Virus record (IMG/VR): IMGVR_UViG_3300049893_000717
Span: 1 to 33,463 of that record
Source: a virus
Reading direction: 5' to 3' (one strand)
DNA length: 33,463 nt
Position numbers and translations under genes: made by a program. Numbering within the stretch: position 1 is the stretch's first letter; every line of letters starts with the position of its first letter. Shown piece after piece: positions 4,662 through 33,463 of this stretch. A model generated the notes under the pieces. That model was given only the letters and a program-made list of their open reading frames with translations, was not told where the DNA came from and did no database searches.

Positions 4662-7600
4662 CACCACCTCACAATGGATTCAGGCTCGTTGTCGGCGATA
4701 CTCGATGAAGAGATCGTCGCATCTGAAGATTCAACTACATCGCCAGCGGTGCCAGACTGTCGAGCTTCTGCCGCATCTGCCAGCTCAATGTCCCCGATGA
4801 ACTCGCGCAGGAAGATCCCTGGGGTCATCGATGGGATCCAGTATGGCCTATGGAAATCGGCAATGGCGACGACGAGGATCGAAGCCGTTCGCTGGAAAAA
4901 TGTTCCCTGAGAGACCTCGACCGAGGCTGCGACCGCGATGTCGGCGATTCGCTCCGCGGACCGGATAGACTCGACCGCCGATGAGGCCGAGATCGAAGCC
5001 GTGCGGCCACTCGTGGCATATGAGGCAACGACTGCCGCTGCGTCGACGGCGACTGTTCTGGAAACGCTCCTGGCCGCGTCGATGACCGCAGTCGCACTGA
5101 TCTGCGCCTGAGGCCCAGCACCTGTAGCAATGGCTGTGATCGACGCGGACGAGCTGATCGATGCGACGCGACCTGCTTCCCTGAGCGCGGAGATTGCGGC
5201 GGTCGACGAAGACGATGCAACTCGCCCTATAGTCTGGAGTGCAGCAACAGAGGCTGAAGCGCTGATGGCGCTTACTCTGGAGGCACCTCGATTGGCTTCG
5301 ATCGTGGCCGTCGCAGAGATGCTCGCGCTGGCAGTCCCGGAGACCGTTGCGGAGATTCCCGCCAGCGCAGTGATGTCCGCCTTCCGGTCGGCTCGACGAA
5401 TCGTCGTTACGGATGCGGATGACGTCGACGTCGCAACCCGCCCGGCGCTCTTGTTCGCAGTAATGGAAGCTGTGGACGATGATGCCGCGACGAGAACTGA
5501 TGTCTTTACCGCAGCGACGATCGCCGTAGAGCTGATGGCCGCTACCCTGCTCGCTCCGATCACGCCATTGACGGAACATGCAGCGGATATGGATGCGACT
5601 CTATCGGCTCTCCGATTTGCGAGTACGACTGCGGTCGCCGAGATCGTCGCGGTTACGGTCCAGTTCTGAGCGACGGAAACGGAGACTGAAGCTCCAATCG
5701 CAGCGACACGGCCAGCACTGCGATTCGCGAGCACGACTGCCGTAGAAGAGATGACCGAAGTTACGTTCCACGTCTTCGCGGCGGAAACATCAACCGTCGC
5801 GGCAATCGAGGCGATCCGGTCCGCTCGGCGATTCGCGAGCACGACTGCCGCCGCCGAAACCGTCGCCGTTACATTCCAAGTCTTCGCTGCGGAGACCGAG
5901 ATCGTCGCCGTAATCGCCGCGACTCTTCCGGTCGACCTGATCGCGGAAATCGAAGCAGTGGACGAGGAAGCCGCGGACTCACCCTTTGTCCGGATCGCCG
6001 ATGCAGTTGCGGTGGATGAGACGCTCGCGACACGACCCGACACCCGGTATGCGGTGACCGTTGCAGTCGCGCTGATCGCCGCAGCGGAGAATGCCGTTCG
6101 ACCAGCGACTACTGATGCGGTAGAACTGGAAGCGGCAACACGGCTAGCCGATCGATTCGCGGCTATCGTCGCAGTCGCGCTAATCGTCGCTGAGCACTGG
6201 TAAACGACGGGGCCTGTAAATGGCCGGTAGAAGAACTGAGCAGGACGAATCAGTAGGAACGGATCGCCCGCGAGGAGCTGACGCTCGCTATCCGTTAGAA
6301 CGTCGCGGAAGACATAGGCGACGTTGAGTTGCCATCCGGAATATACGCTGCCCGGGTTTCCAGGATAAACGCCATACCCCAGGACACCACCCGACGAAGA
6401 CCACCCAGGCTGACCTGTCGGTGACCCCGCGGTCCCGTATGCCGCGTTATCGAGAAGCAGCCGGCCGCCGTTCGTCGCGACGACGCGCTCCGCGTAGAGC
6501 GTATGCTCCGCGTTCGATACCGTTGACCCGGCGGCGGCGAGCTGAAGCTCGGACCCCGCGTCATTCGTCGAGCAGGACATCGTCCCGTCTGTGGCGTTCT
6601 GGAAAGCCGCGAGGACGGTGTACGGGGCGGTGTCATTCCCGTAGTCGTAGCTGAAGCCGAAGATCAGACCGGAGTTCGCACCGTTACTGTTCTTCCGGCC
6701 GTGAATCCACCACGAGAACGGAGACGAGACGCGAAGTGGATGACCAGCAGTAATCGCACTGGAATGCTGTCCGTACCCTCCAGATGAACTCTGCGGTGCG
6801 AGACCGCGAGCGGTCGCTACTCTCGTCGGAGTCGTGTATTCAGACTCCGTTGCGGCGAGCGTTCCTCCCGCATTGAGAATGAATGATGGACCCTCACTCT
6901 CCCAGAATGGGATCGCGGCGACGAGCTTTTTGAGTAGGTTCTGCGCTTCGACCGGAAGTCGCGCCGGAGACCACGCCCATCGAGGAGGCTTTAGATACTG
7001 GTACTCGAACGCTCTCGGCGATCGAATCCGCATCGTCGATGCGTAAACAGAAGCCGTTGACGTCGATGCAGCAACTCGCTCAGCGGTCCTATACGATGCA
7101 ACAGATACCGTTGCACCAATGCTCGCCGTTCGTGAGTAGACCGTCGGCGCGACATTGATCGCAAATGATCTTGCGATGTACGCAGCGGAAGGACCATAGG
7201 TAAACGATCCTCCGCTAACCGTCGTCGAGACCCTGTCCGCTGAATCAATCTGAAGGCTGTGACAGGCGTCAAGACCCGTCGAGGTCGCGTATTCCGCGGC
7301 TGCTTCAGTTAGGTCTCCGTTGCTTTCTCCAGTAAAGCTGGAGACCGCAGTACCGCCTACTTGATCGTCTCCGATGTAGACGAAAACGACGGCACGACCT
7401 CCGGGGGACGCGGGGGTCGTGATCGACGGCTGAGTGCATGACGTTGCAGCCGCGCTGCTCTGAGTATTGCCGGCCGTAAACGGCGTTGTTTGATGCGCCC
7501 CGCTGAACGCATACATTCGGCCGGAGGCGACTGAGCTTGTTCCTGGCGTCGTTACGGTGACGCTTAGGCTTCCGCTTTCTCCGGACCGGATCTTCCAGAA

Positions 7601-7816
7601 GATCGCGTGCTCATTCTGTTGATTCGGACCTTCGCGAGCGGTGACCTGAGTCCATCCGCTAGGAAGCGTATAGTCGCCGCGATTCCCGGATGCAGAATGC
7701 CATCCGATATGGACGATCAGCAGATCGCCGTCGGCGATGCTCGCCGGATAGCCAAGTGATAGGGATGTTCCCGTCGTGGCGTCGCCTGCGCCTGCATTGA
7801 CGAAGACAATCGCCAT
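4661..7816 (-). CDS. Repeat-rich tail fibre protein with LamG-like domain
   Basis: This encodes 1051 residues. Residues about 1-220 form a beta-sandwich domain common in phage appendage proteins (a GDLLIVHIGW strand, then PSGWTQV). Residues 225-260 hold two copies of an 18-residue repeat. Residues about 330-530 look like a LamG/concanavalin-type domain (FSWWIHGRKN, then TLYAERVV and LTDSERQLLAGDPF), a likely carbohydrate-binding module. Residues about 540-970 are a long array of 18-residue repeats of the form VAxISSTAxVxAxRxxGR, followed by an acidic C-terminal tail. The array could build a fibrous beta stalk. The start is ATG 7816 with GAGGTAGAG upstream. It is probably a host-recognition fibre, and no catalytic motif is seen. 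Confidence 0.75.
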   Translation of the reverse strand: MAIVFVNAGAGDATTGTSLSLGYPASIADGDLLIVHIGWHSASGNRGDYTLPSGWTQVTAREGPNQQNEHAIFWKIRSGESGSLSVTVTTPGTSSVASGRMYAFSGAHQTTPFTAGNTQSSAAATSCTQPSITTPASPGGRAVVFVYIGDDQVGGTAVSSFTGESNGDLTEAAAEYATSTGLDACHSLQIDSADRVSTTVSGGSFTYGPSAAYIARSFAINVAPTVYSRTASIGATVSVASYRTAERVAASTSTASVYASTMRIRSPRAFEYQYLKPPRWAWSPARLPVEAQNLLKKLVAAIPFWESEGPSFILNAGGTLAATESEYTTPTRVATARGLAPQSSSGGYGQHSSAITAGHPLRVSSPFSWWIHGRKNSNGANSGLIFGFSYDYGNDTAPYTVLAAFQNATDGTMSCSTNDAGSELQLAAAGSTVSNAEHTLYAERVVATNGGRLLLDNAAYGTAGSPTGQPGWSSSGGVLGYGVYPGNPGSVYSGWQLNVAYVFRDVLTDSERQLLAGDPFLLIRPAQFFYRPFTGPVVYQCSATISATATIAANRSASRVAASSSTASVVAGRTAFSAAAISATATVTAYRVSGRVASVSSTATASAIRTKGESAASSSTASISAIRSTGRVAAITATISVSAAKTWNVTATVSAAAVVLANRRADRIASIAATVDVSAAKTWNVTSVISSTAVVLANRSAGRVAAIGASVSVSVAQNWTVTATISATAVVLANRRADRVASISAACSVNGVIGASRVAAISSTAIVAAVKTSVLVAASSSTASITANKSAGRVATSTSSASVTTIRRADRKADITALAGISATVSGTASASISATATIEANRGASRVSAISASASVAALQTIGRVASSSSTAAISALREAGRVASISSSASITAIATGAGPQAQISATAVIDAARSVSRTVAVDAAAVVASYATSGRTASISASSAVESIRSAERIADIAVAASVEVSQGTFFQRTASILVVAIADFHRPYWIPSMTPGIFLREFIGDIELADAAEARQSGTAGDVVESSDATISSSSIADNEPESIVRW
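4850..6196 (-). repeat. 54-bp (18-aa) tandem repeat array in fibre gene
   Basis: On the - strand this segment encodes about two dozen degenerate repeats of 18 residues with alternating small/hydrophobic residues and a GR or DR at the boundary. Three consecutive copies of a 36-residue super-repeat are visible between about 5640 and 5960; each has an AAKTWNVT-type element followed by a VVLANR element. Some units are 17 or 19 residues long. Confidence 0.8.
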
Positions 7817-7838
7817 GAGTCTCTACCTCGGAACAGCC

Positions 7839-8204
7839 CTAGAGGTTTACGCCGTCTTTCTTGTATTTGAGCTGCGCGTTATAGGTGTTTGTCGCTCCGC
7901 TCGACTTGTAGCTCATCTTGAAATTCGGCCAACCAGTGATCGTAACCGGAGGACCAGGCTCATTGTTCACGTTCGGAGGCGTGTACCGGAACTCCATGAT
8001 CGGTGCTTGGCTCCAGTTCGATCCGTCATGCGAGACGAGGACGCGAATGTCCAGCGAGTCCGTAACGGTTCCGCTCTGGTTGTCGACCCAGATGACCCCC
8101 GCGGCAGTTTCGCCTGGATTCAGCGTCTGCGTTTGGCCTCCAGTGGTCCACGACGTTCCGATGCTCGTCTGCTGCGTTTCTGTCACTTCAGCGGACCAGG
8201 CCAT
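7839..8204 (-). CDS. Small beta-rich virion protein
   Basis: This encodes 121 residues. GGAG lies 6 bases before ATG 8204. It is Thr/Ser/Asn-rich with alternating strands (WSAEVTETQQTSIGTSW, ETAAGVIWVDNQSG, DSLDIRVLVSHDGSNW) and ends in a Lys/Tyr-rich strand (YNAQLKYKKDGVNL). This pattern fits a beta-sandwich structural protein, probably a fibre accessory or virion-surface protein. It sits between the two fibre-region groups in the late operon. No exact family is recognised. Confidence 0.65.
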   Translation of the reverse strand: MAWSAEVTETQQTSIGTSWTTGGQTQTLNPGETAAGVIWVDNQSGTVTDSLDIRVLVSHDGSNWSQAPIMEFRYTPPNVNNEPGPPVTITGWPNFKMSYKSSGATNTYNAQLKYKKDGVNL

Positions 8205-8213
8205 CTCTTACTC

Positions 8214-8429
8214 CTACGTGATCGAGCAGGAAGAAATCACCGAGGAGACCGCCAGGATCCGGACGTCTGGTTTCCCAATCTTCCGGAGCACGGGAGATCG
8301 CTTGTATCGCCCTCGCGAGCTTGGATTCCTGGCGGTCCCCTGTGGCTCCCGGCCGCTGATCTCGTAGTGAAAGCCTGGGGATGACGTTACCGCCACGAGA
8401 ATTGAGACCGAAGCCGTTGCGTTTGCCAT
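8214..8429 (-). CDS. Small hypothetical protein in fibre region
   Basis: This encodes 71 residues beginning MANATASVSILVAVTSSPGF. The rest is basic in the middle and ends in a hydrophobic segment (VRILAVSSVISSCSIT). The ribosome binding site (AGGCG) is weak. Its terminal codons and stop (ATC-ACG-TAG-G) match those of the gene upstream, and the matching sequence also supplies part of the next ribosome binding site. Function is unknown; fibre-region location suggests a small structural protein. Confidence 0.5.
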   Translation of the reverse strand: MANATASVSILVAVTSSPGFHYEISGREPQGTARNPSSRGRYKRSPVLRKIGKPDVRILAVSSVISSCSIT

Positions 8430-8435
8430 GTTCGC

Positions 8436-8855
8436 CTACGTGATCGTGATCGTGATCGAGCTGGTCGCGAACGTGAGGGATTCCAGGTTGTTGACCTGCG
8501 TCGACGTGATGTCGTCGTAGTAGGTCATATTCCCGGCTGCCCTCGTTCCGGAATCAGCGAGCGCCATGTAGGTGCATGCTCCAGACCAGTTCCCGCTTGC
8601 CGGACCGAACGTGATTGCTCCTGCACTGTTCGTGATCGACGATCCGGATGCGGACCCGAACTTCTGAGCTGTCGTCATGTCCTGCCTGCCATATCCGTTC
8701 GTCGCGTCGCCAGCAGTCATCTCGTCCGTCCAAGCACCCGATGCCGTCGGATCCGCTTTGAGGAGCGCGGCGTAGGTAGTGGTCGGCATCGTGAATGATG
8801 CCTTCGAGACGCTGTGATCGAGGAGCTTCTGCTTGAGATACGTGGTCATCGGCAT
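8436..8855 (-). CDS. Small tail-fibre-associated virion protein
   Basis: This encodes 139 residues with AAGGAGG upstream of ATG 8855. It follows the pattern of a widespread phage structural protein: a K-L-L-D-H N-terminal helix, the TYAALLKADPT strand-turn with an S-G-A-W-T-D insert, NGYGRQDMT, ITFGPASGNWSGACTYMALA, and a C-terminal strand ending in ITITIT. Members of this family lie next to tail fibre genes and are annotated as tail or fibre proteins. It is a probable component of the distal tail or of fibre attachment. Confidence 0.7.
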   Translation of the reverse strand: MPMTTYLKQKLLDHSVSKASFTMPTTTYAALLKADPTASGAWTDEMTAGDATNGYGRQDMTTAQKFGSASGSSITNSAGAITFGPASGNWSGACTYMALADSGTRAAGNMTYYDDITSTQVNNLESLTFATSSITITIT

Positions 8856-8870
8856 GGTTGCCTCCTTCGT

Positions 8871-9000
8871 TTATGGACAGGGTTCCATCCGGAATACGCC
8901 GCCAGTGCGGCACCGGAACTTCTTTGGATCCGACGGGTACGGCTCACAGTTCAGATACGCGCTCTCAGGGAGCGTCAAGCAGTACCGGCCCAGCGGGGGG
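8871..9000 (-). other. Alternative-frame extension of the FN3-like gene
   Basis: After the homopolymer at 8995-9000 the shifted - strand frame reads GRYCLTLPESAYLNCEPYP, then RCRTGGVFRMEPCP, and stops at 8871, 4 bases before the ribosome binding site of the next gene. It has plausible composition, paired cysteines and no convincing start of its own. It is best explained as the continuation of the gene at 8965-9429 by a one-base indel (sequencing or real) or by a +1 frameshift. Confidence 0.5.
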
Positions 9001-9429
9001 AGTTGCGTTGACGCGAAAGGTGCGGGCCTTCGAGATGACCACCGACTCCTTTCCTGCGGCGCTCCGGCTCTTCGCCTGGACCTGACCTGTCGCTCCGCTG
9101 CAATGGAGCGCCAGCAGGTTGATCTCCGTTCCCCCTTGAGACACAGGCCGGATCGCATTCCCGGGGTATGAGGCGATGTTGATCGAGCTCCCCGCCTGAG
9201 GCGTCCACCAGACATCGACGGTGGTCGGACTCGGGGCTCCGACGTTGTCCGTCGCTCCCCAGCTCACAGGATCGACGTTGTCCGGGCGCGCGACGAACAT
9301 CGGAGTATCGCCGCAGACAGACTGCGCCTCAGCGACGAAGGACATCCCGAAGAAGAGGATCGCGATCCCGATGGCGAAGATGAAGAACCAGAAGATCTCT
9401 TTCGCGACGTGATGGATCATCCGAGCCAT
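8965..9429 (-). CDS. Exported FN3-like protein, possibly frameshifted at its end
   Basis: This encodes 154 residues. An N-terminal hydrophobic segment (FWFFIFAIGIAILFFGMSFV) followed by AEAQS looks like a signal peptide or anchor. The rest resembles a fibronectin type III domain (VDVWWTPQAG, INLLALHCSG, VQAKSRSAAGKES). The frame ends at 8965 with a second FN3-like linker, TPPAGP. Just upstream of that stop is a run of six G on the + strand (8995-9000). Reading one base differently there opens a frame that continues with normal-looking, Cys-containing sequence to 8871. The true product may therefore be about 185 residues. The start is ATG 9429 (GGGG upstream) or ATG 9420. Confidence 0.6.
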   Translation of the reverse strand: MARMIHHVAKEIFWFFIFAIGIAILFFGMSFVAEAQSVCGDTPMFVARPDNVDPVSWGATDNVGAPSPTTVDVWWTPQAGSSINIASYPGNAIRPVSQGGTEINLLALHCSGATGQVQAKSRSAAGKESVVISKARTFRVNATPPAGPVLLDAP

Positions 9430-9722
9430 GAGAACCCCAGTGCGAGAATGTCGACGATCGATCCGATGAGCCCGCGGGACTTCCGCTGATCGGCCTGGAT
9501 CGCCTCCTGCGCTGCGAGATGATCGCGAGCCTTCTTGCCTACGCCGCTCAGAATCCCCGTTCCGATCGCGACGGCGCTAGCGGCGAGAACCGGGTTCGCG
9601 ATCGAGAGCCCCCCGACGAGGACCGTCGCGATCCCGGCGGCCCCGAGGGTCGTCCGGAACGCTCCCGTGAGCGGAGGGCTCGCGGGGCGATCTACCCTCT
9701 CAATCGTGGTCGGCTGAGACAT
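9417..9722 (-). CDS. Small membrane protein, candidate holin
   Basis: This encodes 101 residues from ATG 9722, chosen because AGGAGG precedes it; an upstream in-frame start would add only shadow sequence. Residues about 25-58 are strongly hydrophobic (LGAAGIATVLVGGLSIANPV and following), enough for two closely spaced membrane spans. A basic helical stretch (KKARDHLAAQEAIQADQRKS) and a third short hydrophobic segment (SIVDILALGFSWLG) follow. Size, topology and its position in a group of three small membrane proteins fit a holin. No holin family is recognised with certainty. Confidence 0.5.
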   Translation of the reverse strand: MSQPTTIERVDRPASPPLTGAFRTTLGAAGIATVLVGGLSIANPVLAASAVAIGTGILSGVGKKARDHLAAQEAIQADQRKSRGLIGSIVDILALGFSWLG

Positions 9723-10068
9723 CGGTGACCTCCTGATTCTTACAGTATGCCTTAGGCATGCCGGAATTCGGCATGGCACACAGGATCTTGATCCGCTCTG
9801 ACTCCAGCATGCGCTGCTTCATGATCTGACCGAGCTGCTGCTCCTGCTTCGCGTCGATCCTGGCATTCGTCTCGATCGCCCCCGCGACGTCGTCGGCGAT
9901 CTGCTGGATCGAGGTCAGGTCCTTTGCGATCGACTCGACGCGCGGCTCCTCCGTGGCGACGTGGTCGTTGACCCTGTCATACCACCGCACGAGGAGAAGG
10001 ACCCCAGCGGCGACCGCGAGGCCGATCGGCCAGATCCGTCCGACGATCTCCCACTTCTTCGCGTCCAT
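9700..10068 (-). CDS. Membrane-anchored coiled-coil protein (spanin- or holin-like)
   Basis: This encodes 122 residues from ATG 10068 (TGATG overlap, AGGAGG 8 bases upstream); a GTG at 10077 is badly placed for that site. One N-terminal membrane span (WPIGLAVAAGVLLLVRWY, about residues 13-30) is followed by a long charged helix (ESIAKDLTSIQQIADDVAGA and DAKQEQQLGQIMKQR), with two cysteines near the C-terminus. A single span plus periplasmic coiled coil is the architecture of an inner-membrane spanin. Other anchored accessory proteins share it. Confidence 0.5.
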   Translation of the reverse strand: MDAKKWEIVGRIWPIGLAVAAGVLLLVRWYDRVNDHVATEEPRVESIAKDLTSIQQIADDVAGAIETNARIDAKQEQQLGQIMKQRMLESERIKILCAMPNSGMPKAYCKNQEVTDVSADHD

Positions 10069-10427
10069 CACGGGCACCTCCTGAGCAGCAGCTCCGTCCG
10101 TTCATCCAGCGCAGCGACGTGATGTCCCTGCTCTTCGAGCTTCCGCGCGATCTTCTCGTGGATCGCGTTGTTCTCGGCGAAGCCTGAGTCGATGTTCCGT
10201 TGAATCCCTTCGAGCATGGCCTCCGATGCGACTCGCTCGACCCTTACCTCTTCGAATAGAGTATTGGCCTGCTGGATATGATTATCCAGAGATGCCTTGA
10301 TCCCGTCGATGGGCTGCCGGATCTTGTAGAGGCACCGCGCGATGACCGCCGTGGTCGCGCCGAAGATGATCGCGGCGATCTCGATCGCAGATCGAAGCTC
10401 AGCCCAGCCCTCCGGAGGTTCGACCAT
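10068..10427 (-). CDS. Membrane-anchored coiled-coil protein
   Basis: This encodes 119 residues. A hydrophobic span at about residues 14-34 (IEIAAIIFGATTAVIARCLY) is followed by a continuous amphipathic helix to the end (KASLDNHIQQANTLFEEVRV and HEKIARKLEEQGHHVAALDE). It has the same layout as its downstream neighbour, suggesting paralogy or a partner relationship. It starts just after the stop of the large exported protein. It could act with its neighbours in lysis or anchor a virion or envelope complex; no family is identified. Confidence 0.5.
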   Translation of the reverse strand: MVEPPEGWAELRSAIEIAAIIFGATTAVIARCLYKIRQPIDGIKASLDNHIQQANTLFEEVRVERVASEAMLEGIQRNIDSGFAENNAIHEKIARKLEEQGHHVAALDERTELLLRRCP

Positions 10428-10428
10428 C

Positions 10429-13041
10429 TCATTGCCCTTTCGACCCGCCGATCACGCCAACCGGACTGATCGACATCGATGTGTCCGGAGTACCGCCACC
10501 TCCGCCACCACCACCCGCCGCTGCGGCTGATCCGTATCCGACCTCCCAGCACGGAACCGGGGCGTCTCCGAGCCGAACGACCATGTTATCCATCGCCCGA
10601 TATGTGTCTGCAGTGGTTCCGCCTGTTCCGCCGGCTGGCGAGTTCTTGTTCGCATAGGCGTTCCAGATGAACTGGTTGAGCTGCACGAGGGTCAGGTCGT
10701 TCGAGGGGACGACCATGTCAACGAGGTTCGGGCTCGCCGCGTCGCTGTTGAGCCACCGCTTGAACGTGAGCGTCTGATTGCCGGAGTTGTAGTTCCAGTC
10801 GATCTTCATGCAGTGCCAGTCCCCGAGCGGGGCGTCAGTCGCCTGGACGAACGACAGGTCCGGGATGATGGTCATGTTCCCGGAGTTGTCGCAGGAGCAC
10901 TGGCCCTTCGTGATCGTCCCAGCGGCGCACGCGGACTTGCAGTCTGCGTAGCCGGTCCCGGAAACGCATCCTGGGTACGTCGTCCGGCTGCCGGAGTGCG
11001 TGAACAGGTTGACCTTGAACGGCAGGCCGTGCGACAACGAGCAGGTCGTGTACTCGTCGCCCCCGCAGACGTTCTCGACGTCCGGGTTGCACCTCTGGCC
11101 GATGTTCGCGCCGCTCACGCAGATCCCGCCGCCCACGCCACCGGCTCCGTGGAGACTGGTCCAGGCGAGGCTGCACCGGCTGTCAACGTTCGAGCCGGTC
11201 GCGAACTCCTCATGCTTGTTCTGATTCGTTCCGGCCCCTGACGTCCAGTAGTTGTCCGCGTAGGCCATCATGACCGTGATCCCAAGACGCTGATATTCCG
11301 CTCCGAACCGGATGAGTCCTTTTTTCCCGCTCGTCGCTTCCTCATTTCGGACCGGAGACGCAGGGATGCGCCACCCGATGGACTGCGTCCCGTCCCATAC
11401 CCCGCGGTTGTCGTTCGTCCCCGGCGTGTCCGGTATCCCAGCCCCGTCCGCGTCGACGTCGAACTCGGATCCAGTCCTAGCAACGAGAACATGAGCGGAG
11501 TCATCCTGCACGTTGTAGAGGTTGTCACTCCTGCGTAGCCCAAGGGCTGGACAGTGCGCACCTACTCCGACGTCGCACGAGCACGGAACAAGAGTCGAAG
11601 TAATTCCTGGCTCACCCGACTTGTATCCGGCACTGGTGTAATCGGCGCCGTTTCCCTCGTCATCGTGAGTGCGCCTGAAATAGGAGTTGTACCCGAGGTT
11701 GCACGTACCAGCTCCGCCCGTCTTATCACTCCAAGGACCATAGTACGGCGCTCCGGCTCCGATCCTTGCCGAGAGGTTGCACGTTCCGCCAACCGGTGAG
11801 CAGTCCGAATCAACATTGCACCACCTATTCGGATCCGACGTACACCGACCGGCGTAGTAAAGAGGCGGAGCATCGAAGTCGAAGCTGCGGACATCCCCTC
11901 GGATCGGAACACCGTCTCCGTCCCATTTGTCACGGCAGGCTGCATTCGCGCACGTCCTTCCCGTGCTACCTCCAGTGCATGGGACGTCATTCAAAGCGCC
12001 ATCCGTATTCGCGTAACAGTCCGTCAGGCAATCGACCTGATCCGTGCAGGTATGCGTCACGCCCTCGACCTCGGTCGCCGGACCGATCCAGAATTTCGGA
12101 TCAACGGGGACCTGCGACTGCATGACGTAGGCGAAGTACGCTTGATCATTCGTCCCGCCGCTTGCCGTGTTCTGGTCGTACCAGTCGAGGAGCCCACCAC
12201 CCGCCGTCGTTCCGGACCACTTCTGCTGACCGTGAGTGTCCGAACCGCTATTCATACAGCCCTCGGTCTTGTCGCCGCTCACGATGTCGGTCATGCGGAA
12301 CCGAACGCACAGCTTGTTCGCGGTGAGCGCAGTCCCGCAGCAGTCCATCCCGGTCGTGCTGTGATCGGTGCAGACCTCGACCCGATGCGCGTGGACCTTT
12401 AGATCGCTCCACGAGACCTGATTCGCGATGTTCGGCGGGTCCTGCGCGGTCTCGCCCCATACGGTCCCGTTCCCGAAGTCGAGAGCCATCGTCGGGTTCG
12501 TTCCGTAGTCCTGCCACTCGATCTGTACGTTCACGTCTCCATCGGTGTCCGATCCGCCCTGACCAGGGCGCACCCACTTGTGCCTGTAGAGATCGTGGTT
12601 GTTCGGAGCTGCGTAGTCAGAGGCGAAGCTCGCGTAGTACCGTCCGCAAACGGTGCAGTTCGAGCAGGTGACCGAATCCGCCCAAAGCGAGATCCCAGCG
12701 TTCGCTCCATTTCCACTCTGATCGATCTTTGCCACATAGTTCGTCGACGGAAGAACGCCGAACGCCGGTGCGGTCCCCATCGCGCTCGCTTGGACCATCG
12801 CCGCGGCACCGGAGTCTGCGACGTCGAATCCTGAGCACTCCTTCGCATCTGAGGAATTGTTGAGGTCAAAGTTTCCGGACGTGATCGACTGGTTCGAGTT
12901 CATCGACTCCGCGCAGACGCATCCAGATCCGAGGCCGTCACAGCGGTTCTCGCCGTTCGCGTCGTCGTTGTCGCCTGCGACCCCGAGGAATGGGATCGCA
13001 AGGCTAATTGCGAGTGCCGTGAACCTGAATTTCCAGCTCAT
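10429..13041 (-). CDS. Large exported cysteine-rich appendage protein
   Basis: This encodes 870 residues from ATG 13041; an upstream in-frame extension to 13317 is shadow coding inside the previous gene. The N-terminus (KFRFTALAISLAIPFLGVAG) is a good Sec signal peptide. About 38 cysteines are present, several in eukaryote-like disulfide patterns (CTSDPNRWCNVDSDCSPVGG and CNPDVENVCGGDEYTTCS). The C-terminal part (LGDWHCMKIDWNYNSGNQTL, then YRAMDNMVVRLGD) has the layout of a concanavalin/LamG or polysaccharide-lyase-like beta sandwich, followed by a Gly-rich linker (G8). It sits between the other exported protein and the small membrane proteins in the late operon. It is probably a carbohydrate-binding or degrading surface protein or fibre. 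The signal peptide is unusual for a virion component. Confidence 0.6.
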   Translation of the reverse strand: MSWKFRFTALAISLAIPFLGVAGDNDDANGENRCDGLGSGCVCAESMNSNQSITSGNFDLNNSSDAKECSGFDVADSGAAAMVQASAMGTAPAFGVLPSTNYVAKIDQSGNGANAGISLWADSVTCSNCTVCGRYYASFASDYAAPNNHDLYRHKWVRPGQGGSDTDGDVNVQIEWQDYGTNPTMALDFGNGTVWGETAQDPPNIANQVSWSDLKVHAHRVEVCTDHSTTGMDCCGTALTANKLCVRFRMTDIVSGDKTEGCMNSGSDTHGQQKWSGTTAGGGLLDWYDQNTASGGTNDQAYFAYVMQSQVPVDPKFWIGPATEVEGVTHTCTDQVDCLTDCYANTDGALNDVPCTGGSTGRTCANAACRDKWDGDGVPIRGDVRSFDFDAPPLYYAGRCTSDPNRWCNVDSDCSPVGGTCNLSARIGAGAPYYGPWSDKTGGAGTCNLGYNSYFRRTHDDEGNGADYTSAGYKSGEPGITSTLVPCSCDVGVGAHCPALGLRRSDNLYNVQDDSAHVLVARTGSEFDVDADGAGIPDTPGTNDNRGVWDGTQSIGWRIPASPVRNEEATSGKKGLIRFGAEYQRLGITVMMAYADNYWTSGAGTNQNKHEEFATGSNVDSRCSLAWTSLHGAGGVGGGICVSGANIGQRCNPDVENVCGGDEYTTCSLSHGLPFKVNLFTHSGSRTTYPGCVSGTGYADCKSACAAGTITKGQCSCDNSGNMTIIPDLSFVQATDAPLGDWHCMKIDWNYNSGNQTLTFKRWLNSDAASPNLVDMVVPSNDLTLVQLNQFIWNAYANKNSPAGGTGGTTADTYRAMDNMVVRLGDAPVPCWEVGYGSAAAAGGGGGGGGTPDTSMSISPVGVIGGSKGQ

Positions 13042-16000
13042 TGCAGTCCCCTGGACTCCCCTCGGAGGTCGCCGTGACGATGTAGCTGATCTTGTCCCCT
13101 GCGCTAAACGTCTGCGAGATCGAACTCGACACCCCGGTCGTATCGCATACGAGAGATGCGAGTTGCGTGGTGCAATTGTCATCGTCGATGTCTTCTCCGA
13201 GGCAGACCTTCGCTGTTGCGCTCGTGCAACCGGCGACGCCGTAGGCTTCGCAGTCGACTCGGAGCATCTTCCCCGCCCAGCGCGGGAGACGAAGCACTCC
13301 CTCCGCGGACATCTCATCCCCGGAACTCGTCGGGTTCGCGATGGTGAGGTGGGTGATCTCGATCAGCTCGCCTTCGTTCCGGATCGAAATTTCCTGGTCA
13401 TTCGATCCGTCGTCGCAGACGATCCTGGGGACCGCGCAGTTCGCTCCCGCTCCTGCGCCCGTACAGCAAGCACGCGGGACACCGGCCGCGATGCAATCGC
13501 TCGCGTCATCGACAGCGCCGATCAGGCACTCATCCGGCTGAAGCGAGGTTGCATCCATCGGGTTTGTGTTCCGTCGAACCGGAACGCCACGGTCTGAAGT
13601 CGTCCCCCAGTATGAAGCCGTGTACGTCTTACCGGTCACGCCACCGATACAGGAGGCGAACGTCCCGTCCGCAGCGAGGTCGTTGCAGGCGCACTGGAAC
13701 TCTCCGGTCGGACAGAGCGTGACCCCTCCTGGCATATGAGCCGTCGCTCCCTCGGCTACCGTGAAGTCGAACTCGACTCCGGCTACCGACGTGTTCGTGT
13801 CCACGCCCTTCGCAACCCTGGGTGAGATGGTCTCGTTCGCGTTACTGCACTGGATCTCATTCGATGCGTTGATCGTGAGCGGCATGCGCAGCGAATCGAC
13901 CGTACCCGTCGAGCAGGCTTGAGAGCGCCAGAGCAGGTCTACGTTCCCGGTATAGTTGGAATACCCCTTGAGGCCCGTGTACTGCGTATTGTCTGAGTCG
14001 TAGAACCGAACAGCTCGCTGATTCAAGAAGCCCAGCTCCGTCCCGTTCGTCATCTGCATGACGCCGTCTGACGGGAAAGAGAACCTGACATCAGTCGCTC
14101 CAGTGTCGAACCGAAGCGCGGAGAACGGCGCGTCTCCGTTGAAGTCTCCGAGTGTAAGAGAGGTGATGCTCGAAGGAGCGAACGCGAACGTGAACGTTGT
14201 GTAGGACCCCGGAATCGGAACAGACGTCACCGATAGACCGCTTCCAGCAACGAGGTTTACACCCTGCTCACCTGGCTGGTAGGTGTTCTGAATGTAGACG
14301 CGATCAGTCGTTGGGTACTTCCAGGCCCCCGTGTATCCAGTGGGAGGCGTTAGCGTCGCGCCGTTCATCGGGACGAGACCGGATACATCGACGTTCGGCT
14401 GGACGCATGACCCTGTCCCTGCGCCAGTGCAGCACGGCCACGGGACTCCGTTCGCGGTGCACTTCGAGATCCCCCAGGCTCCGGCGAAGTTAGTGTTTGC
14501 ATCAGCGATCGTCCCCCTCAGGGAGATCTGTGAGACCGCCTTCACGTCGAGGAGCTTGTGCGCAGATGGACCGAAGCAAACATCCCCGTAATAGGTGAAC
14601 AGTCCGGTGTAGTTGAACATCCCGAACCACTCGTCCGACGAATCAGCGGATACGACGGACGGCGAGTCGCACGTCAGGGCTCCTCCTCCATCTGGGTCCT
14701 CGCAGCAGATTTGCCGATTATCCGATCGAGTCCCTCCGCCAAGAATGAGCGGCATGTCGTCGGCCGTGTTCCCGTGGATATACCCGGCATCGACGGTCCA
14801 TCCGCCAACCCAAGTCACCACGTTCGCGATGGTATTCCCCTCCGAAATGAGCCTCCCGAAATGGAGCGCATTCTCCGCCGCGTACGCGGAAACGTATTCG
14901 TTCGCCCGAGTTCCGGAGCACGTTCCGCTCTCGCAATCGCTGGCAACGGCAAGCCCTCCGCCGTACTCGGTCATATCCGAAATCCCGACGAGGTTCGTTC
15001 CGGCGTATACTGGATTCTCGAAGCTCACTCCGCCGCCACCAGGGACGAGCATCCCCACTCCGCAGGAAGAAACGCGGATCTTCGGCATCGAAGATGAGAA
15101 GTACCACTGCGCATAGAATCCGATGTCATCGTGGTCGTTCGACGTACCACCGCAATTCAGCTCCATCGAGAAGTCGTTCGTGTTCATTTGCGTCGCCCCA
15201 GAGAACGCGACCGGGTTGAACGTCTTCGTCGAGTATCCAGTGATCGTGACCGGGAACGGAATTCGACCAGACTGCCAGGAGTCCGTGAGGTCGGTCCCGA
15301 ACGAGCGGAAGTTCCCGACGACCTCGACGCTCCCCGAAATCTCTCCGTCGGCATCAGTATCCGGCGCGGCGTTCTTCCACCCGCAGATGTCGCGCGCGCC
15401 AAAGGAGATGAGACGCGATAGGGAATCCTGAGCGGTCTCCACGGCGTCGATCTCCAGATCGACCATGATGATCCTCAGTCTTCCAGCGGCAAGGTCTCGC
15501 GTGCAGTCGATCTCGGGGAGTCCGTTCCCATCCAGCGTGTTCGTCGTCGGCGCGATCAAGACACCGACGCGGGTCTTGTCTGACGTCCCGTATCCCTTCA
15601 TGTTGTTGAGCGTCCAGCTCGACTGACCCGTCCAGATCACCGTACGCCACGAATCCGTCGGCGTGGCCTTTGTATACGGATGGATGCTCTTCGCTAGAGC
15701 CGCCATTCCCTGGGCCTGGTTCATAGTGCTGATATCGACGACGGCATCGACGTTGACCATATCGATCACCCAATCGCCGAGGTCGGGATCGACCGTGTCG
15801 TCGTTGCAGTTCTGATTGATGTAGAACGCGGTTTGACCAGGAACCTTCTCGATGCACCCGCCTGTGCCGAGCTGAAGCCGATCCGTCTTGAGCTGCGTGG
15901 ACGTCCCGAGATCGAGCACGTCGCCGCCGTAAGACGACCCAGCAAGCCCGCCGGCCTCGCTCGCTCCGGCCCTGTAGAGGAGCTGAGTCCCAGTTGCACT

Positions 16001-16324
16001 GATCGACGCGCCGCCTCCGCCGCCGGAGAACGCGGTCCAGTCCTTCGTCGCGACGTCCTCGCAGTAGTAAGCGACGTCCGTGAGCGTATCGATCCGGCAG
16101 AGCCCGGAGATCCCGTTGCATGTAGTCGATCCGTCCACGGGAGGACCCGACTGGAGCAGGCAGAATCCGCCCACGGGGATCGTGAGCTGTCCGATCTCCC
16201 TCGGCTGCACCGAGATCAACTGTTCCCCGTCGATCGAGTTCGGCTCGAAGGTCGCGGGGGACGCGACTCGCGCGATCAGAGCGAGCAGGAAGACCGGGAC
16301 GAGAAGATAAATGAAGGCTCGCAT
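13004..16324 (-). CDS. Large exported cysteine-rich tailspike/fibre-like protein
   Basis: This encodes 1106 residues from ATG 16324 with GAGG 9 bases upstream; the longer frame to 16630 has no support. The first residues (AFIYLLVPVFLLALIARVAS, cut near PA) look like a signal peptide. The middle region (about residues 250-600) has short strands and turns with many Gly/Asn, compatible with a pectin-lyase-like beta helix as in tailspikes. Near residue 770 the ELGFLNQRAVRFYDSDN element is of the type found in phage fibre shafts. There are about 38 cysteines and two copies of a GVPxxCCTGAGxG module. No catalytic site can be assigned. It is a likely host-surface recognition protein, either virion-borne or exported. 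Confidence 0.6.
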   Translation of the reverse strand: MRAFIYLLVPVFLLALIARVASPATFEPNSIDGEQLISVQPREIGQLTIPVGGFCLLQSGPPVDGSTTCNGISGLCRIDTLTDVAYYCEDVATKDWTAFSGGGGGASISATGTQLLYRAGASEAGGLAGSSYGGDVLDLGTSTQLKTDRLQLGTGGCIEKVPGQTAFYINQNCNDDTVDPDLGDWVIDMVNVDAVVDISTMNQAQGMAALAKSIHPYTKATPTDSWRTVIWTGQSSWTLNNMKGYGTSDKTRVGVLIAPTTNTLDGNGLPEIDCTRDLAAGRLRIIMVDLEIDAVETAQDSLSRLISFGARDICGWKNAAPDTDADGEISGSVEVVGNFRSFGTDLTDSWQSGRIPFPVTITGYSTKTFNPVAFSGATQMNTNDFSMELNCGGTSNDHDDIGFYAQWYFSSSMPKIRVSSCGVGMLVPGGGGVSFENPVYAGTNLVGISDMTEYGGGLAVASDCESGTCSGTRANEYVSAYAAENALHFGRLISEGNTIANVVTWVGGWTVDAGYIHGNTADDMPLILGGGTRSDNRQICCEDPDGGGALTCDSPSVVSADSSDEWFGMFNYTGLFTYYGDVCFGPSAHKLLDVKAVSQISLRGTIADANTNFAGAWGISKCTANGVPWPCCTGAGTGSCVQPNVDVSGLVPMNGATLTPPTGYTGAWKYPTTDRVYIQNTYQPGEQGVNLVAGSGLSVTSVPIPGSYTTFTFAFAPSSITSLTLGDFNGDAPFSALRFDTGATDVRFSFPSDGVMQMTNGTELGFLNQRAVRFYDSDNTQYTGLKGYSNYTGNVDLLWRSQACSTGTVDSLRMPLTINASNEIQCSNANETISPRVAKGVDTNTSVAGVEFDFTVAEGATAHMPGGVTLCPTGEFQCACNDLAADGTFASCIGGVTGKTYTASYWGTTSDRGVPVRRNTNPMDATSLQPDECLIGAVDDASDCIAAGVPRACCTGAGAGANCAVPRIVCDDGSNDQEISIRNEGELIEITHLTIANPTSSGDEMSAEGVLRLPRWAGKMLRVDCEAYGVAGCTSATAKVCLGEDIDDDNCTTQLASLVCDTTGVSSSISQTFSAGDKISYIVTATSEGSPGDCNELEIQVHGTRN

Positions 16325-16326
16325 TT

Positions 16327-16671
16327 CTAATACCTCTGAGCGGCCGGGATGGAGACCGCAGCAACGGCAAGATTTGTCACCCCGTCCAGGTAGGTCACCT
16401 GAACGCGACCCGTACCGTCGTTGAACCACTTCGGCGGGACCGCCTTGCAGATGGCGATGGTTCCTGCGGTGATCGTCACGTCGAGATCCGGCGCGGAGAT
16501 GAACGGGTCCGTCGGCTGCGTTTGCGCCTCGAACCGCACCCTGAGATCGCCGCCGGACGTATTCCAGCACATCAGGTGCTCTTCCCCGGTGTTCGAGAAC
16601 GAGTCCCCGGTGATCGTTGCGTTCGACCATGTAATCGGGGTCTGGAGCTGCTGGATCGTCAGGACCGCCAT
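16327..16671 (-). CDS. Small beta-sandwich virion protein
   Basis: This encodes 114 residues starting in a TAATG overlap. The pattern LQTPITWSNATITGDSFSNT, then GEEHLMCWNTSGGDLRVRF, a VTITAGTIAICKAV strand pair and a GRVQVTYLDGVTNLAVAAVS end matches a frequent family of about 110-residue phage structural proteins (a GD-x-F-x-N-x-G motif followed by a beta sandwich). Members lie near capsid or fibre genes and are thought to be decoration or fibre-linked proteins. The exact role here is not determinable. Confidence 0.65.
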   Translation of the reverse strand: MAVLTIQQLQTPITWSNATITGDSFSNTGEEHLMCWNTSGGDLRVRFEAQTQPTDPFISAPDLDVTITAGTIAICKAVPPKWFNDGTGRVQVTYLDGVTNLAVAAVSIPAAQRY

Positions 16672-30357: not shown

Positions 30358-31188
30358 CTAACGCCGCAGCGTATCGAGCGCCTTGCAGAGCAACTGAGAG
30401 CCCACCGTGGGTTCCCAGGATCGCAAGACGAGGTTGGACACGAGGTCAACCACTGGACTGCGTGATGGCTCATCCGTGTTCTCGTCGCGGCTGCGTGGTG
30501 GCTCACTGCGACTTGGGTGCGCGATCGTCTGGCTGCGTGGAGGCTCACCAGCGTTTGCGGACCTCACCCATCTCTCGACCCGCCCGGCGAGATCGTCATC
30601 TTCCAGGTCGGTGAGAATCGAATTCAGCTCCGGGCTCGGCATCTTCGCGAGTGCTCTCGCGAGTGCCTGAGCGTTCGGGTTGCTGGGAATTGGAACGAGA
30701 CTGACTTCGAGCAGGTCGACCTCGTCGAAGACGAGGATCGGAGGACCGCCGCGAGCGAGAGGCTGATCCTCGTGCCATCGCTTCGGCTCGAAGCCGATCG
30801 ACGTCGAATTCAGGAACCCCGTCTTGACCATGCGAAGCGCCATCTCGGCTTTCGGATTCACGTCGGCAGGAGCGAACTCGACCTCGTGATCGAAGCCGTT
30901 GCGGTTCGCCTCATGTCGCAGCGTCCGACCGATGATCGACTCGATGCTCGGACCGCCGCCCATCAGGCTTCCGTAGCCATCGTGACCCCAAATGAAGATC
31001 GGGTTCCGATCATAATTCTCTGTTCGGATACCCTCTGGCATGATCCTTGTCCCATGCCTGTCCAGGTCCGGCGTTGAGCTTCTGAAACTGATCACGCGAT
31101 CGCTTCTGATCGAATGAACATTTCCGCCCGCTCGTACTTCTTGGCGTGCTTCGATCTTCTCGATTTCGGGAATATGAAGCCTGGTCAT
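30358..31188 (-). CDS. Prohead protease (HK97 family)
   Basis: This encodes 276 residues; ATG 31188 overlaps the portal-MuF stop (ATGA) with GGAGG upstream. His69 in FIWGHDGYG and a serine in LNSTSIGF (Ser130, with Ser128 as alternative) are the expected catalytic residues of the HK97 prohead serine protease. The downstream strand EVDLLEVSLVPIPSNPNA completes the family pattern. It matures the capsid by removing the N-terminal delta domain. The C-terminal 90 residues are poorly ordered and contain repeated E-P-P-R-S / E-P-S-R-S elements (about residues 205-245), probably a flexible tail cleaved during maturation. Confidence 0.88.
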   Translation of the reverse strand: MTRLHIPEIEKIEARQEVRAGGNVHSIRSDRVISFRSSTPDLDRHGTRIMPEGIRTENYDRNPIFIWGHDGYGSLMGGGPSIESIIGRTLRHEANRNGFDHEVEFAPADVNPKAEMALRMVKTGFLNSTSIGFEPKRWHEDQPLARGGPPILVFDEVDLLEVSLVPIPSNPNAQALARALAKMPSPELNSILTDLEDDDLAGRVERWVRSANAGEPPRSQTIAHPSRSEPPRSRDENTDEPSRSPVVDLVSNLVLRSWEPTVGSQLLCKALDTLRR

Positions 31189-33463
31189 GCTTCCTCCACG
31201 TCGCTAGCGACGGTGCATCGGCAGTTAGAACAGAGGATGTTCTGTGCTACCATCCAGCCTGTTCTAGACTGGAGATCGAAAATATGACCGCGAAAATCGA
31301 GTTTGCGAACCTCGATGATCTGATCCAGCGATACCGCTCCGGCGTATCGATGAAACAACTCTCGGATGAAATCGGCGTCGCTCGACATGCTATTTCCCGC
31401 GCGTTCCGAGAGCGGGACGTTGAGATCCGCGGCAGATCCGATGCGGAACGTGTGAAGTGGTCTGCGATGACGATCGATGCGCGCGCTCGCCAGTGCTCTG
31501 CGGCGCACGCCGCCGCGCGAGGGCGTGTCGTAGGGAGATCCGAGGCCATCAGGCGAGCGAGGACGCATCAGAGAAACCTGACGCGCCGCGGGTTGTTCGA
31601 AGACGCCATCTCTGCCGAGCTTCGACGACGACGACACAGGGTCACACAGCAAACCGCCTGCGGCCGATACAACATCGATCTTACCCTGGACAAAGAGGCC
31701 GTCGCCGTCGAGGTCCACAGTTCGAGCATCTCGAACATTCAACACGCCAGGCACCAGAAGCGCGCGAAATACATCGTCGATTCTGGCTGGAGCCTGCTGA
31801 TTCTGATCTGCTGCGGATCCGACGGCCACGCGATCCCGTGCAATGTTCCCGGCCTCGCGGATCACATAGTCGCCTTTGCGAAGCTGCTTCGCAGCGACGA
31901 ATCCCTCCGCGGTGGCTATGGGGTGGTTCGGGGTCACGCGAAGGCGGCTTCCGCCGAGCGTGTGCAATTCAATCAACTCTCCTGCGTATTCCGCGGTTAG
32001 CCCGGCGACGAAAGGCCCAGAAACGAGTGTTTCTGCCGGGAAGCAGTTGATGACGTTGTCCGCGCTCGCTCCGTTGTCCCCGTCGCCGGGGTACAGCAGG
32101 TGCTCCTCGACGCCGTCGGCGTTGTCGACGCTGAAGTATTCCCCATGCCGGATGCGCTGACCGTTCGCTGCCGCATGGTGTTCTCGCGTCCGATCGTCAC
32201 TGACGACGAGCCAGGTATCGTAAATGCGCACTCCGAGGCGAGCTTCTGCGAGATCAGCGTGCTCGCTGCGCCCGCGATTGATCGCGTACGCGGTCTCAGT
32301 CCTTGCGATCGTCTCGGCGCGGACGGCCTTGAATCCTTCGTACAAGTCTGAGATCGCCTCTGCGGTCTCGGGGATCGACGCCCCTTCCGCGACGGAGTTC
32401 GCGATGACCTCGCGAACAGCCTTCCGCGTCGTCTTCGTGATGTTCGTGATCTTCTGAGAGCTGAGCGACCGTGCGATCGATTCCGCCTGAGGCTCGAAGA
32501 CCGAGAAGTCGATCAACGTGCGCGCAGCGTCAGAAGAGAGGAGGCTCCAGCCGTCCTCCAGCCCACGACGGATCGCCTCACGCATCGTGCGCTCCCACTG
32601 TGAGGTGATGCCCTTGAGGATGTCGTCGATGACGTCGCGTGTCTTCGCGTCCAGATCGATATCGAACATCGAATCGACGCCAGGCACGATGATTCGCTGC
32701 GCGCCCTTGAGGTATCCGGCTTCGAGCGCAGAGAGAATGGCCGACTCCTCCTTGATGAAGAGCTTCCTGACTTTTCGGCGAAGGAAGCTCTCGGACGGTC
32801 CTTGTCGGCCCAGGTATCGTCCTTCGGCCAGCTCCAGATCCTTCGTCGTGAGCTTCGTGAGCAGCCCAGAAGGGAGGAATCCTCGGCCGGTTGGGGTCGC
32901 CCCCCTGACTGACCCGTCGGCCGAGGAATCTCCGTCGTCGGGATCCGGACCGTCGGGCGGGGTACCGGGGTCCGTGTCCTCTTCGAGCGGAGCCTGTGGG
33001 ATCGTTCGAGTCGTGAGTCCGTCCTCCAGCTTCGCGACCAGAGTGACGCCGCTCGGCAGCATAAACAGATCGCCCTCTGGGCCAGGCAGCGGATCACGGC
33101 CGGTCTCTTCGAGGTACTGATTGATCCGGATCACGCCCTTCGCTAGGCCCTGATCGGCCTTCTGTAGCTCGAACTGCTCATCCTTGCGGACGGGGTTCTC
33201 GAACTCGAACTCGACGCGGCCGATGTCGACAGGCTTCAAGATCCGCGGCAGCAGGTATTCATTGATCGCCTCCTCGATCTTCTCCAGTCGAGGGACGATG
33301 CAGTTCTTCGCGTAGGAGTTGTCACGCGCCGCGTGTTCGGCTGCGGTGCCGCCTTCCTGAGCGAGACCGAGCTTGCCGGCGGGGACGCGATAGATCGCGA
33401 GGATCTGATCGCGCGTCATCTGCGCGAGATCAAGGAACGCGAGATCCTTGATCGAGATCGAGA
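31185..33463 (-). CDS. Portal-MuF fusion containing an intein (5' end outside window)
   Basis: The gene runs in from the right edge; upstream of the first in-window Met (33419) the frame stays open with portal-type sequence (IKDLAFLDLAQMTRDQILAI). Residues below count from that Met. Residues 1-130 are the C-terminal part of an HK97-type portal (YRVPAGKLGLAQEGGTAAEH, then RINQYLEETGRDPLPGPEGD). A Pro/Asp/Gly-rich linker (145-175) follows, then a MuF head-morphogenesis domain (about 190-458: AVRAETIARTETAYAINRGR, VVSDDRTREHHAAANGQRI). The MuF domain is interrupted after N458 by the intein and resumes at C733 as CRCTVASDVEEA. Portal-MuF fusions are known in some phages. The portal is the packaging channel; MuF proteins are ejected or assist assembly. 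Confidence 0.85.
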   Translation of the reverse strand, partial: SISIKDLAFLDLAQMTRDQILAIYRVPAGKLGLAQEGGTAAEHAARDNSYAKNCIVPRLEKIEEAINEYLLPRILKPVDIGRVEFEFENPVRKDEQFELQKADQGLAKGVIRINQYLEETGRDPLPGPEGDLFMLPSGVTLVAKLEDGLTTRTIPQAPLEEDTDPGTPPDGPDPDDGDSSADGSVRGATPTGRGFLPSGLLTKLTTKDLELAEGRYLGRQGPSESFLRRKVRKLFIKEESAILSALEAGYLKGAQRIIVPGVDSMFDIDLDAKTRDVIDDILKGITSQWERTMREAIRRGLEDGWSLLSSDAARTLIDFSVFEPQAESIARSLSSQKITNITKTTRKAVREVIANSVAEGASIPETAEAISDLYEGFKAVRAETIARTETAYAINRGRSEHADLAEARLGVRIYDTWLVVSDDRTREHHAAANGQRIRHGEYFSVDNADGVEEHLLYPGDGDNGASADNVINCFPAETLVSGPFVAGLTAEYAGELIELHTLGGSRLRVTPNHPIATAEGFVAAKQLRKGDYVIREAGNIARDRVAVGSAADQNQQAPARIDDVFRALLVPGVLNVRDARTVDLDGDGLFVQGKIDVVSAAGGLLCDPVSSSSKLGRDGVFEQPAARQVSLMRPRSPDGLGSPYDTPSRGGVRRRALASARIDRHRRPLHTFRIGSAADLNVPLSERAGNSMSSDADFIRELFHRYAGAVSLDQIIEVRKLDFRGHIFDLQSRTGWMVAQNILCSNCRCTVASDVEEA
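31227..31243 (+). promoter_or_regulatory. Inverted repeat upstream of the antisense endonuclease
   Basis: AGAACA-GAGGA-TGTTCT is a perfect 6-bp inverted repeat 40 bases before the endonuclease ATG. On the + strand it lies between a weak -35-like TTAGAA (31225-31230) and a -10-like TACCAT (31248-31253). An operator bound by the endonuclease's own helix-turn-helix is possible. The same bases encode the last six intein residues, so the symmetry may be chance. Confidence 0.3.
31284..32000 (+). CDS. Vsr-like putative homing endonuclease encoded antisense to the intein
   Basis: This encodes 238 residues from ATG 31284, with GGAG 9 bases upstream; the open frame to 31146 is unsupported. Residues about 10-45 form a helix-turn-helix (LIQRYRSGVSMKQLSDEIGV). 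A basic linker follows. Residues 104-175 have the layout of EDxHD/Vsr-like PD-(D/E)XK nucleases: LFEDAISAELRRR (Glu106), VTQQTACGRYNIDLTL (Asp132), VAVEVHSSS (Glu143, His145), HQKRAKYIVDSGWSLLIL. The family includes homing endonucleases linked to inteins and introns. The gene lies wholly inside the intein DNA, on the opposite strand, codon over codon with the intein frame. It faces against the late operon, so it needs its own promoter. In-register antisense frames are often open in this GC-rich DNA; motif content and ribosome binding site, not length, support it. Confidence 0.75.
   Translation: MTAKIEFANLDDLIQRYRSGVSMKQLSDEIGVARHAISRAFRERDVEIRGRSDAERVKWSAMTIDARARQCSAAHAAARGRVVGRSEAIRRARTHQRNLTRRGLFEDAISAELRRRRHRVTQQTACGRYNIDLTLDKEAVAVEVHSSSISNIQHARHQKRAKYIVDSGWSLLILICCGSDGHAIPCNVPGLADHIVAFAKLLRSDESLRGGYGVVRGHAKAASAERVQFNQLSCVFRG

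Follow-up and report, generated by a model that had tools for sequence, protein, structure and literature searches.

An Antisense Gene Enclosed by an Intein

The window analyzed here, the whole 33,463-nucleotide stretch of IMG/VR virus record IMGVR_UViG_3300049893_000717, is a single contig from an uncultured virus without a close relative. It ends in a portal-MuF gene interrupted by an intein, and the DNA of this intein encodes a second protein on its opposite strand; we consider it highly probable that the two together form a mobile intein with its homing endonuclease written antisense on the same bases. The host open reading frame (ORF; 31185-33461, minus strand), the last gene on its strand, matches PF04860 Phage_portal (E = 4.8e-13), PF04233 Phage_Mu_F (E = 1.3e-12), and phrog_2662 portal (E = 3.6e-52). 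It fuses the C-terminal part of the portal protein and MuF in one ORF at the contig edge, its 5' end and start lying off the contig.

The intein (31224-32045, minus strand; 822 base pairs [bp], 274 amino acids, CFPAETLV...AQNILCSN) is inserted directly before the Cys of the MuF motif NCRC, and its borders were set from the intein motifs together with NCRC. It separates the N-extein (from 32046 upward, minus strand), part of the portal-MuF ORF, from the C-extein (31188-31223, minus strand; CRCTVASDVEEA). Cys1, block B TPNHP (TxxH), block F GHIFDL, the terminal Asn, and the +1 Cys are all present, and the penultimate residue is Ser, not His. PF14890 Intein_splicing matches the excised window intein with E = 5.1e-7 at 30 bits, under the Pfam cut-off of 35.8, and matches 41/41 family inteins at E <= 0.01. 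Profile searches with the intein retrieved solved inteins, the top Foldseek matches were RecA and RadA intein domains, and the splicing domain is predicted to be folded. Within the family, Cys1, T38, and H41 are invariant and N274 is nearly so, while a +1 Cys follows in all 54 parsed lineages. The inteins span 266-348 amino acids, a range behind much of which extra helix-turn-helix (HTH) units appear to lie.

Enclosed completely by the intein is the antisense gene (31284-32000, plus strand), which runs from an ATG at 31284 to a TAG at 31998-32000 (717 bp including the stop) and encodes 238 amino acids. The register is codon-on-codon, each codon of the gene being reverse-complementary to one of the intein, here as in the other loci checked. 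Intein block B VTPNHPIA (31914-31937, minus strand) thus lies opposite the C-terminal GYGVVRGH of the antisense product, the intein element DLDGDG (31692-31715, minus strand; family consensus DFHGDG) opposite VAVEV, and GKIDVV (31668-31691, minus strand) opposite YNIDL. A preliminary description of this DNA had placed a 717-bp antisense gene wholly inside an 822-bp MuF intein and had assigned DLDGDG/GKIDVV and YNIDL/VAVEV to the same bases; our coordinates, translation, and column analysis agree with it.

The Antisense Product Resembles a Vsr-Like Nuclease

The antisense protein combines a predicted HTH (residues 10-43; 31311-31412, plus strand; PF19575 HTH_58, E = 4e-4; predicted helices 10-18, 23-30, and 34-43) with a Vsr/EDxHD-like nuclease domain (residues 104-216; 31593-31931, plus strand). 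The latter matches PF18741 MTES_1575 with E = 2.7e-6, which is under the curated cut-off for the window protein. At E <= 0.01, MTES_1575 is matched by 41 of the 47 family members, many of which also match HTH families. Compared with solved structures, the family profile retrieved 3hrl (1.5e-8), the homing endonuclease I-Bth0305I (3r3p, 1.7e-4), and Vsr (1cw0, 0.0074). AlphaFold2 modeled the protein with a mean predicted local distance difference test score (pLDDT) of 91.7, and VIA-align placed Vsr at the top of the matches to the nuclease domain (1cw0; Z = 10.9 over 115 residues, root-mean-square deviation 2.8), followed by 3hrl (Z = 9.6) and 3r3p (Z = 9.4).

Invariant in the 47 family sequences are E106 (31599-31601), D132 (31677-31679), and E143 (31710-31712; all plus strand), the three candidate catalytic residues on sequence grounds, and also R160. 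The HTH plus Vsr-like (EDxHD-type) nuclease of the preliminary description is therefore borne out by the profiles, the structure matches, and the fold, and its putative catalytic residues are conserved among relatives. That description had further asked whether homologues exist outside this register. Full-length relatives were found only within it; free-standing relatives of the whole HTH-nuclease were sought, and outside inteins only HTH-length matches (Jalebi, Goe25) were returned. The nuclease domain, by contrast, does have relatives elsewhere, namely MTES_1575, 3hrl, I-Bth0305I, and Vsr.

The Overlap Recurs in at Least 55 Lineages

A tblastn search with the antisense protein returned 107 phage records at E <= 1, nearly all beneath head or minor-capsid genes. 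The relatives come from Gordonia, Pseudomonas, Vibrio, Idiomarinaceae, Salmonella Jerseyvirus, Pantoea, and Rhodococcus, and also from plasmid III of Ca. Promineifilum. When IMG/VR was queried with the single protein no match was obtained; a family alignment was required, which yielded 188 relatives, 80 of which were kept, and because the search pattern is itself antisense to block B (TPNHP) these counts are no frequencies. Scanning bacterial genomes with a sub-alignment of the family added nine further loci from Chloroflexi, Actinobacteria, and Proteobacteria with the same arrangement, one of them (L183; loci and lineages are numbered with the prefix L) with a broken antisense frame.

Each of the 94 loci examined, the window included, keeps its intein frame open along the antisense gene, always in this register; a broken antisense frame occurs in just two (L017 and L043). 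Clustering at 60% identity gave at least 55 lineages. Inteins with an ORF in the same antisense register, which the preliminary description had suggested seeking, thus occur across phages and prophages of Actinobacteria, Proteobacteria, and Chloroflexi. When loci were selected by an intein profile instead, 80/80 (the best 80 of 509) carried the antisense nuclease; this profile includes overlap columns, so that the count gives no rate of inteins lacking the gene.

Several members depart from the common pattern. The antisense gene is shortened or broken in L183, L013, L017, and L043 with the intein frame open, and L183 keeps DFHGDG in its intein frame despite an interrupted nuclease frame. A large ORF without a MuF match (L016:2443-6114) also carries this intein-nuclease unit, inserted before the Cys of ...DHYS|CGAAAT..., which we take to resemble a cysteine-protease motif; a transfer into a different host gene is possible. 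The profile of phrog_15127 ("head protein") matches the intein part in five different host genes; it appears to derive from head proteins with inteins and could give intein carriers the wrong label. In vB_StyS-sam, part of the antisense gene has been deposited as a hypothetical protein, ORF43.

Mobility of the Family

Relatives of the window intein display the polymorphism of a mobile element. Exact empty sites were found for two phages: the joined flanks of the intein-bearing Salmonella phage demigod align without gaps to 5sent1 (98.2%), and those of Gordonia phage Kewpiedoll align without gaps to ChadMasterC (97.0%). Alleles have also been swapped, since the flanks of Vivi2 and Kewpiedoll are 93% identical and their inteins just 52%. 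Conversely, the inteins of Salmonella L007 and Pantoea L011 are 88% identical between flanks that share only 64-65%, as expected of transfer. The broken antisense frames with open intein frames (L017, L043, and L183) fit the decay expected of homing genes.

An antisense nuclease could also be genuine and yet serve mainly in interference with intein-less phages, in DNA repair, or in regulation. An HTH joined to a Vsr-like nuclease would suit such roles as well, and interference would require the same cut as homing, with a head gene as the target. Homing nevertheless predicts a gene strictly confined to the intein, alleles that are precisely empty, allele swaps, and cross-genus transfer, all of which were observed; homing and other roles are not mutually exclusive. 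We regard a principal role other than homing as improbable; judged from its family, its location, and the mobility of its relatives, the antisense enzyme is very likely the intein's homing endonuclease.

Start Signals Lie within Intein Codons

The antisense gene of the window begins with an ATG (31284-31286, plus strand) opposite the block-F His codon CAT, and 9 nucleotides before it a Shine-Dalgarno sequence, CTGGAG (31269-31274, plus strand), occupies the Leu-Gln codons of block F (FDLQ). We compared the frequency of such signals in 51 lineages with the expectation from host codon use, taking maxima over 200 resamplings. An ATG opposite the block-F His codon is present in 46/51 lineages (23.3 expected, maximum 32), and a GGAG, GAGG, or AGGA site upstream of the antisense ATG in 43/51 (13.0 expected, maximum 22). 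Both signals occur together in 38 of the 51, compared with 5.5 expected (maximum 12).

Promoter-like sequences are likewise enriched. TATAAT occurs in the last 45 nucleotides of the intein, upstream of the antisense ATG, in 15/51 lineages (2.2 expected, maximum 5), whereas C-extein controls and the inside of the gene showed no comparable excess, remaining at background level. Sigma-70-like promoters scoring at least 10 of 12 were found at this position in nine lineages against 1.9 expected, with TTGACA-18-TATAAT in L034 and L028.

The penultimate residue of 54 inteins is His in 27, Ser in 17, and Lys in 8. Among the lineages with a penultimate Lys (ending in KN) are those in which the final intein codons, read on the opposite strand, supply a TTGACA -35 box (L034, L028, L019, L074, and L050). 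The penultimate His, the usual catalytic helper, may have been traded for promoter sequence. In Idiomarinaceae phage 1N2-2 (L006:2351-2362), block F is TPVYTV, which has no His codon, and the antisense ATG is set three codons deeper into the intein.

Both Reading Frames Are under Selection

In the codon-on-codon register the middle codon positions of the two frames coincide, and consequently a conserved protein alone confers about 94 bits on its antisense translation. To measure similarity beyond this shadow, we scored each lineage's antisense product with a profile built from the other lineages, taking synonymous codon permutations of the same intein (50 shuffles) as the null; in the converse test the antisense protein was held fixed, its codons were shuffled, and the intein frame was scored. 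The antisense product averaged 261 bits compared with 94 for shuffled sequences, about 167 bits over shadow, and the intein frame 208 compared with 117; in neither test, in any of the 55 lineages, did one of the 50 shuffles attain the real score. The window alone gave 241.5 bits for the antisense frame (shuffled 92.9 +/- 17.0, maximum 128.4 of 50 shuffles) and 177.5 bits for the intein frame (96.0 +/- 12.7, maximum 121.4). The N-exteins of the same genes served as control and scored 23.1 versus 22.4 bits (mean z 0.09); only 8 of 48 had an open antisense frame. Residual common ancestry or codon bias is thus not the source of the excess.

Substitutions between close relatives agree with the shuffles. 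Within the overlap, almost every close pair differs more often at position 1 of the intein codons (position 3 of the antisense codons) than at intein position 3, the reverse of what is seen in the extein. Single-base codon differences, classified over nine close pairs of which some have a common member, gave omegas of 0.11 (antisense) and 0.31 (intein frame) in the overlap and of 1.22 (antisense) and 0.11 (sense) in the N-extein control. By region, omega (antisense/intein) was 0.24/0.16 in the intein blocks, 0.10/0.28 in the nuclease core, and 0.11/0.50 opposite the HTH.

Column by column, the intein frame stands out from the nuclease shadow in block B (z = 47-48), DFHGD (z = 27), block F (z = 22), and IEDVF (z = 20), and only modestly in EIDVV, which faces the nuclease core (z = 6.5); where it faces the HTH and linker, it stays mostly within the shadow (z about -1 to 3). 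The antisense frame lies above shadow nearly throughout (z 7-44), the one exception being its extreme C-terminus, which is at shadow level. Its C-terminal GxYxVIRG motif is in part dictated by TPNHP of block B. Single elements carry both signals: VTPNHPIA (intein z 47.1, antisense z 35.6), DLDGDG (26.9 and 18.2), and GKIDVV (6.5 and 29.9). In the predicted intein structure the splicing halves and the DFHGD region are folded, and residues 134-219 mostly have pLDDT < 50. We regard the overlap and the dual selection on it as established. The preliminary description had suggested protein-level constraint on both strands and had proposed codon-level tests in both frames; shuffles and omegas find both constrained, the antisense frame the more strongly. 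The claim stands for blocks B and F, IEDVF, and DFHGD, and not for the intein frame opposite the HTH and linker, most of which is nuclease shadow and predicted to be disordered.

These results bear on whether either frame is an artifact of the other. It could be argued that the intein frame is the shadow, the antisense nuclease having come to rest in frame in a ShiLan-like unspliced insertion whose splicing has been lost, and the shadow-level, disordered middle of the intein and the stronger constraint on the nuclease frame are in keeping with this. We accept it for most of the linker and, on the column test, reject it for the splicing blocks, DFHGD, and IEDVF (z 20-48). The invariant Cys1, the nearly invariant terminal Asn, the universal +1 Cys, the PF14890 matches of all 41 inteins, and the splicing frames that remain open where the nuclease frame is broken further leave this explanation very unlikely. 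We reject as having next to no probability the converse proposal, that the antisense ORF is held open by a GC-rich genome and made similar by the conserved intein opposite it, since the 94 bits and the partly forced GxYxVIRG that this register supplies fall short of real scores above every shuffle, a null N-extein control, an antisense omega of 0.11 compared with 1.22 in the extein, the enriched Shine-Dalgarno and ATG signals, and the nuclease profile and fold.

Elsewhere in the window, three very large ORFs (1051, 962, and 1208 amino acids; 4661-16630, minus strand) adjoin tail genes; none has a PHROG match at 1e-5.

Discussion

Our data favor a mobile intein that carries the gene for its homing endonuclease on the other strand of its own DNA. 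We suggest that late transcription of the head gene would yield a MuF precursor, in which intein blocks A and B (N-terminal) and F and G (C-terminal) would fold as the splicing domain, excise, and restore NCRC. The opposite strand would be transcribed separately, in many lineages from a sigma-70-like promoter in the final 60 bp of intein DNA, and a Shine-Dalgarno sequence and ATG in block-F codons would start an enzyme of roughly 230-310 amino acids with one or more HTHs and a Vsr/EDxHD-type nuclease. The enzyme would then cut MuF alleles without an intein, in or close to the NCRC codons, and the entire unit would be copied into the break during repair. Most of the sequence between blocks B and F would be linker that needs only to stay open, with the exception of IEDVF and DFHGD, which are important to the intein frame as well. 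Splicing, expression, DNA cleavage, target site, and homing are all predictions of this scheme.

Several points weigh against it. The empty sites, swap, and transfer were seen in relatives, and mobility of the window's own intein is extrapolated from them. The possible antisense promoter of the window (GTTAGA-18 nucleotides-TACCAT; 31224-31253, plus strand) is poor, with 7 of 12 matches, though its Shine-Dalgarno sequence and ATG are good. The window protein lacks the GGxWH motif, including its His, that is present in most relatives. Finally, Foldseek matches to single PDB chains are weak (best E = 0.037), and the fold assignment therefore rests on the VIA-align Z-scores and the profile matches.

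For the family as a whole, it is probable that these are widespread bidirectional inteins, in which the nuclease is coded codon-on-codon on the reverse complement, its catalytic residues share bases with DFHGD, and in many lineages the promoter, ribosome-binding site, and start lie in C-terminal intein codons. One ancestral overlap would have been kept across at least 55 lineages, the splicing element and the mobility enzyme being hard to separate by recombination or point mutation.

Canonical large inteins, with LAGLIDADG or HNH endonucleases nested between blocks B and F, resemble this family in their Hint splicing domain and presence/absence polymorphism, in being inserted at a conserved protein motif, and in holding nuclease information between the splicing blocks. 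Here, however, the nuclease is a separate protein of the Vsr/EDxHD type, encoded on the opposite strand with its own start signals and overlapping block B and the start of block F. The intein frame itself has no Pfam nuclease match, and its residues 134-219 are the mostly low-pLDDT segment described above; with no nuclease domain in frame with the splicing blocks, we rejected a canonical nested endonuclease. In the "fractured genes" that Dassa and colleagues reportedly described in 2009, split inteins are accompanied by a free-standing Vsr-like/EDxHD homing endonuclease. By its profile and fold matches to 3r3p, the nuclease of our family belongs to the same superfamily as theirs and I-Bth0305I, but in those systems the gene reportedly lies between the intein halves, whereas here the intein is contiguous and the gene runs through it on the other strand. 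A split intein with a free-standing endonuclease gene was rejected, a single frame being open from block B to block F in 94/94 loci. Relatives of the Vsr/EDxHD homing domain are also carried by phage group II introns (PMC12350094, which cites Dassa 2009 for the family and the split inteins).

Homing genes concealed in other frames have precedents. Nuclear group I introns such as myxomycete L2066 carry antisense homing endonuclease genes in the peripheral ribozyme segment P9.2 (PMC9548176); these too lie opposite a splicing element and are apparently transcribed separately, but they overlap no second protein-coding frame. Unspliced methylase insertions hold out-of-frame HNH genes (PMC11855218), likewise homing nucleases hidden in another frame of an insertion that is open in the host frame; these differ in lying on the same strand, in being HNH enzymes, and in having no splicing domain found and no detectable ribosome-binding site. 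In Jerseyvirus, the intein-containing capsid morphogenesis gene has been noted, with the antisense gene unmentioned (PMC8425127). In the literature searched, no intein was described as carrying an antisense homing gene; three papers outside the search might hold such a description, among them a 2025 preprint on actinobacteriophage inteins. PMC11855218 cites this preprint ("Non-Canonical Architecture") for overlapping reading frames, and to judge from that citation it may describe them.

The arrangement adds a new architecture to inteins and, with its deep sampling, is a clear example of opposite strands that encode two real proteins codon-on-codon. It helps to account for the conserved DFHGDG...EIDVV element of phage head-protein inteins, and about 100 deposited phage genomes carry the antisense gene, overlooked or only partly called. 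The persistence of dual coding, expression of a homing enzyme independently of late genes, and a delay by overlap of the usual decay of homing endonucleases all become testable, and such self-contained units could serve as tools for linked splicing and gene insertion.

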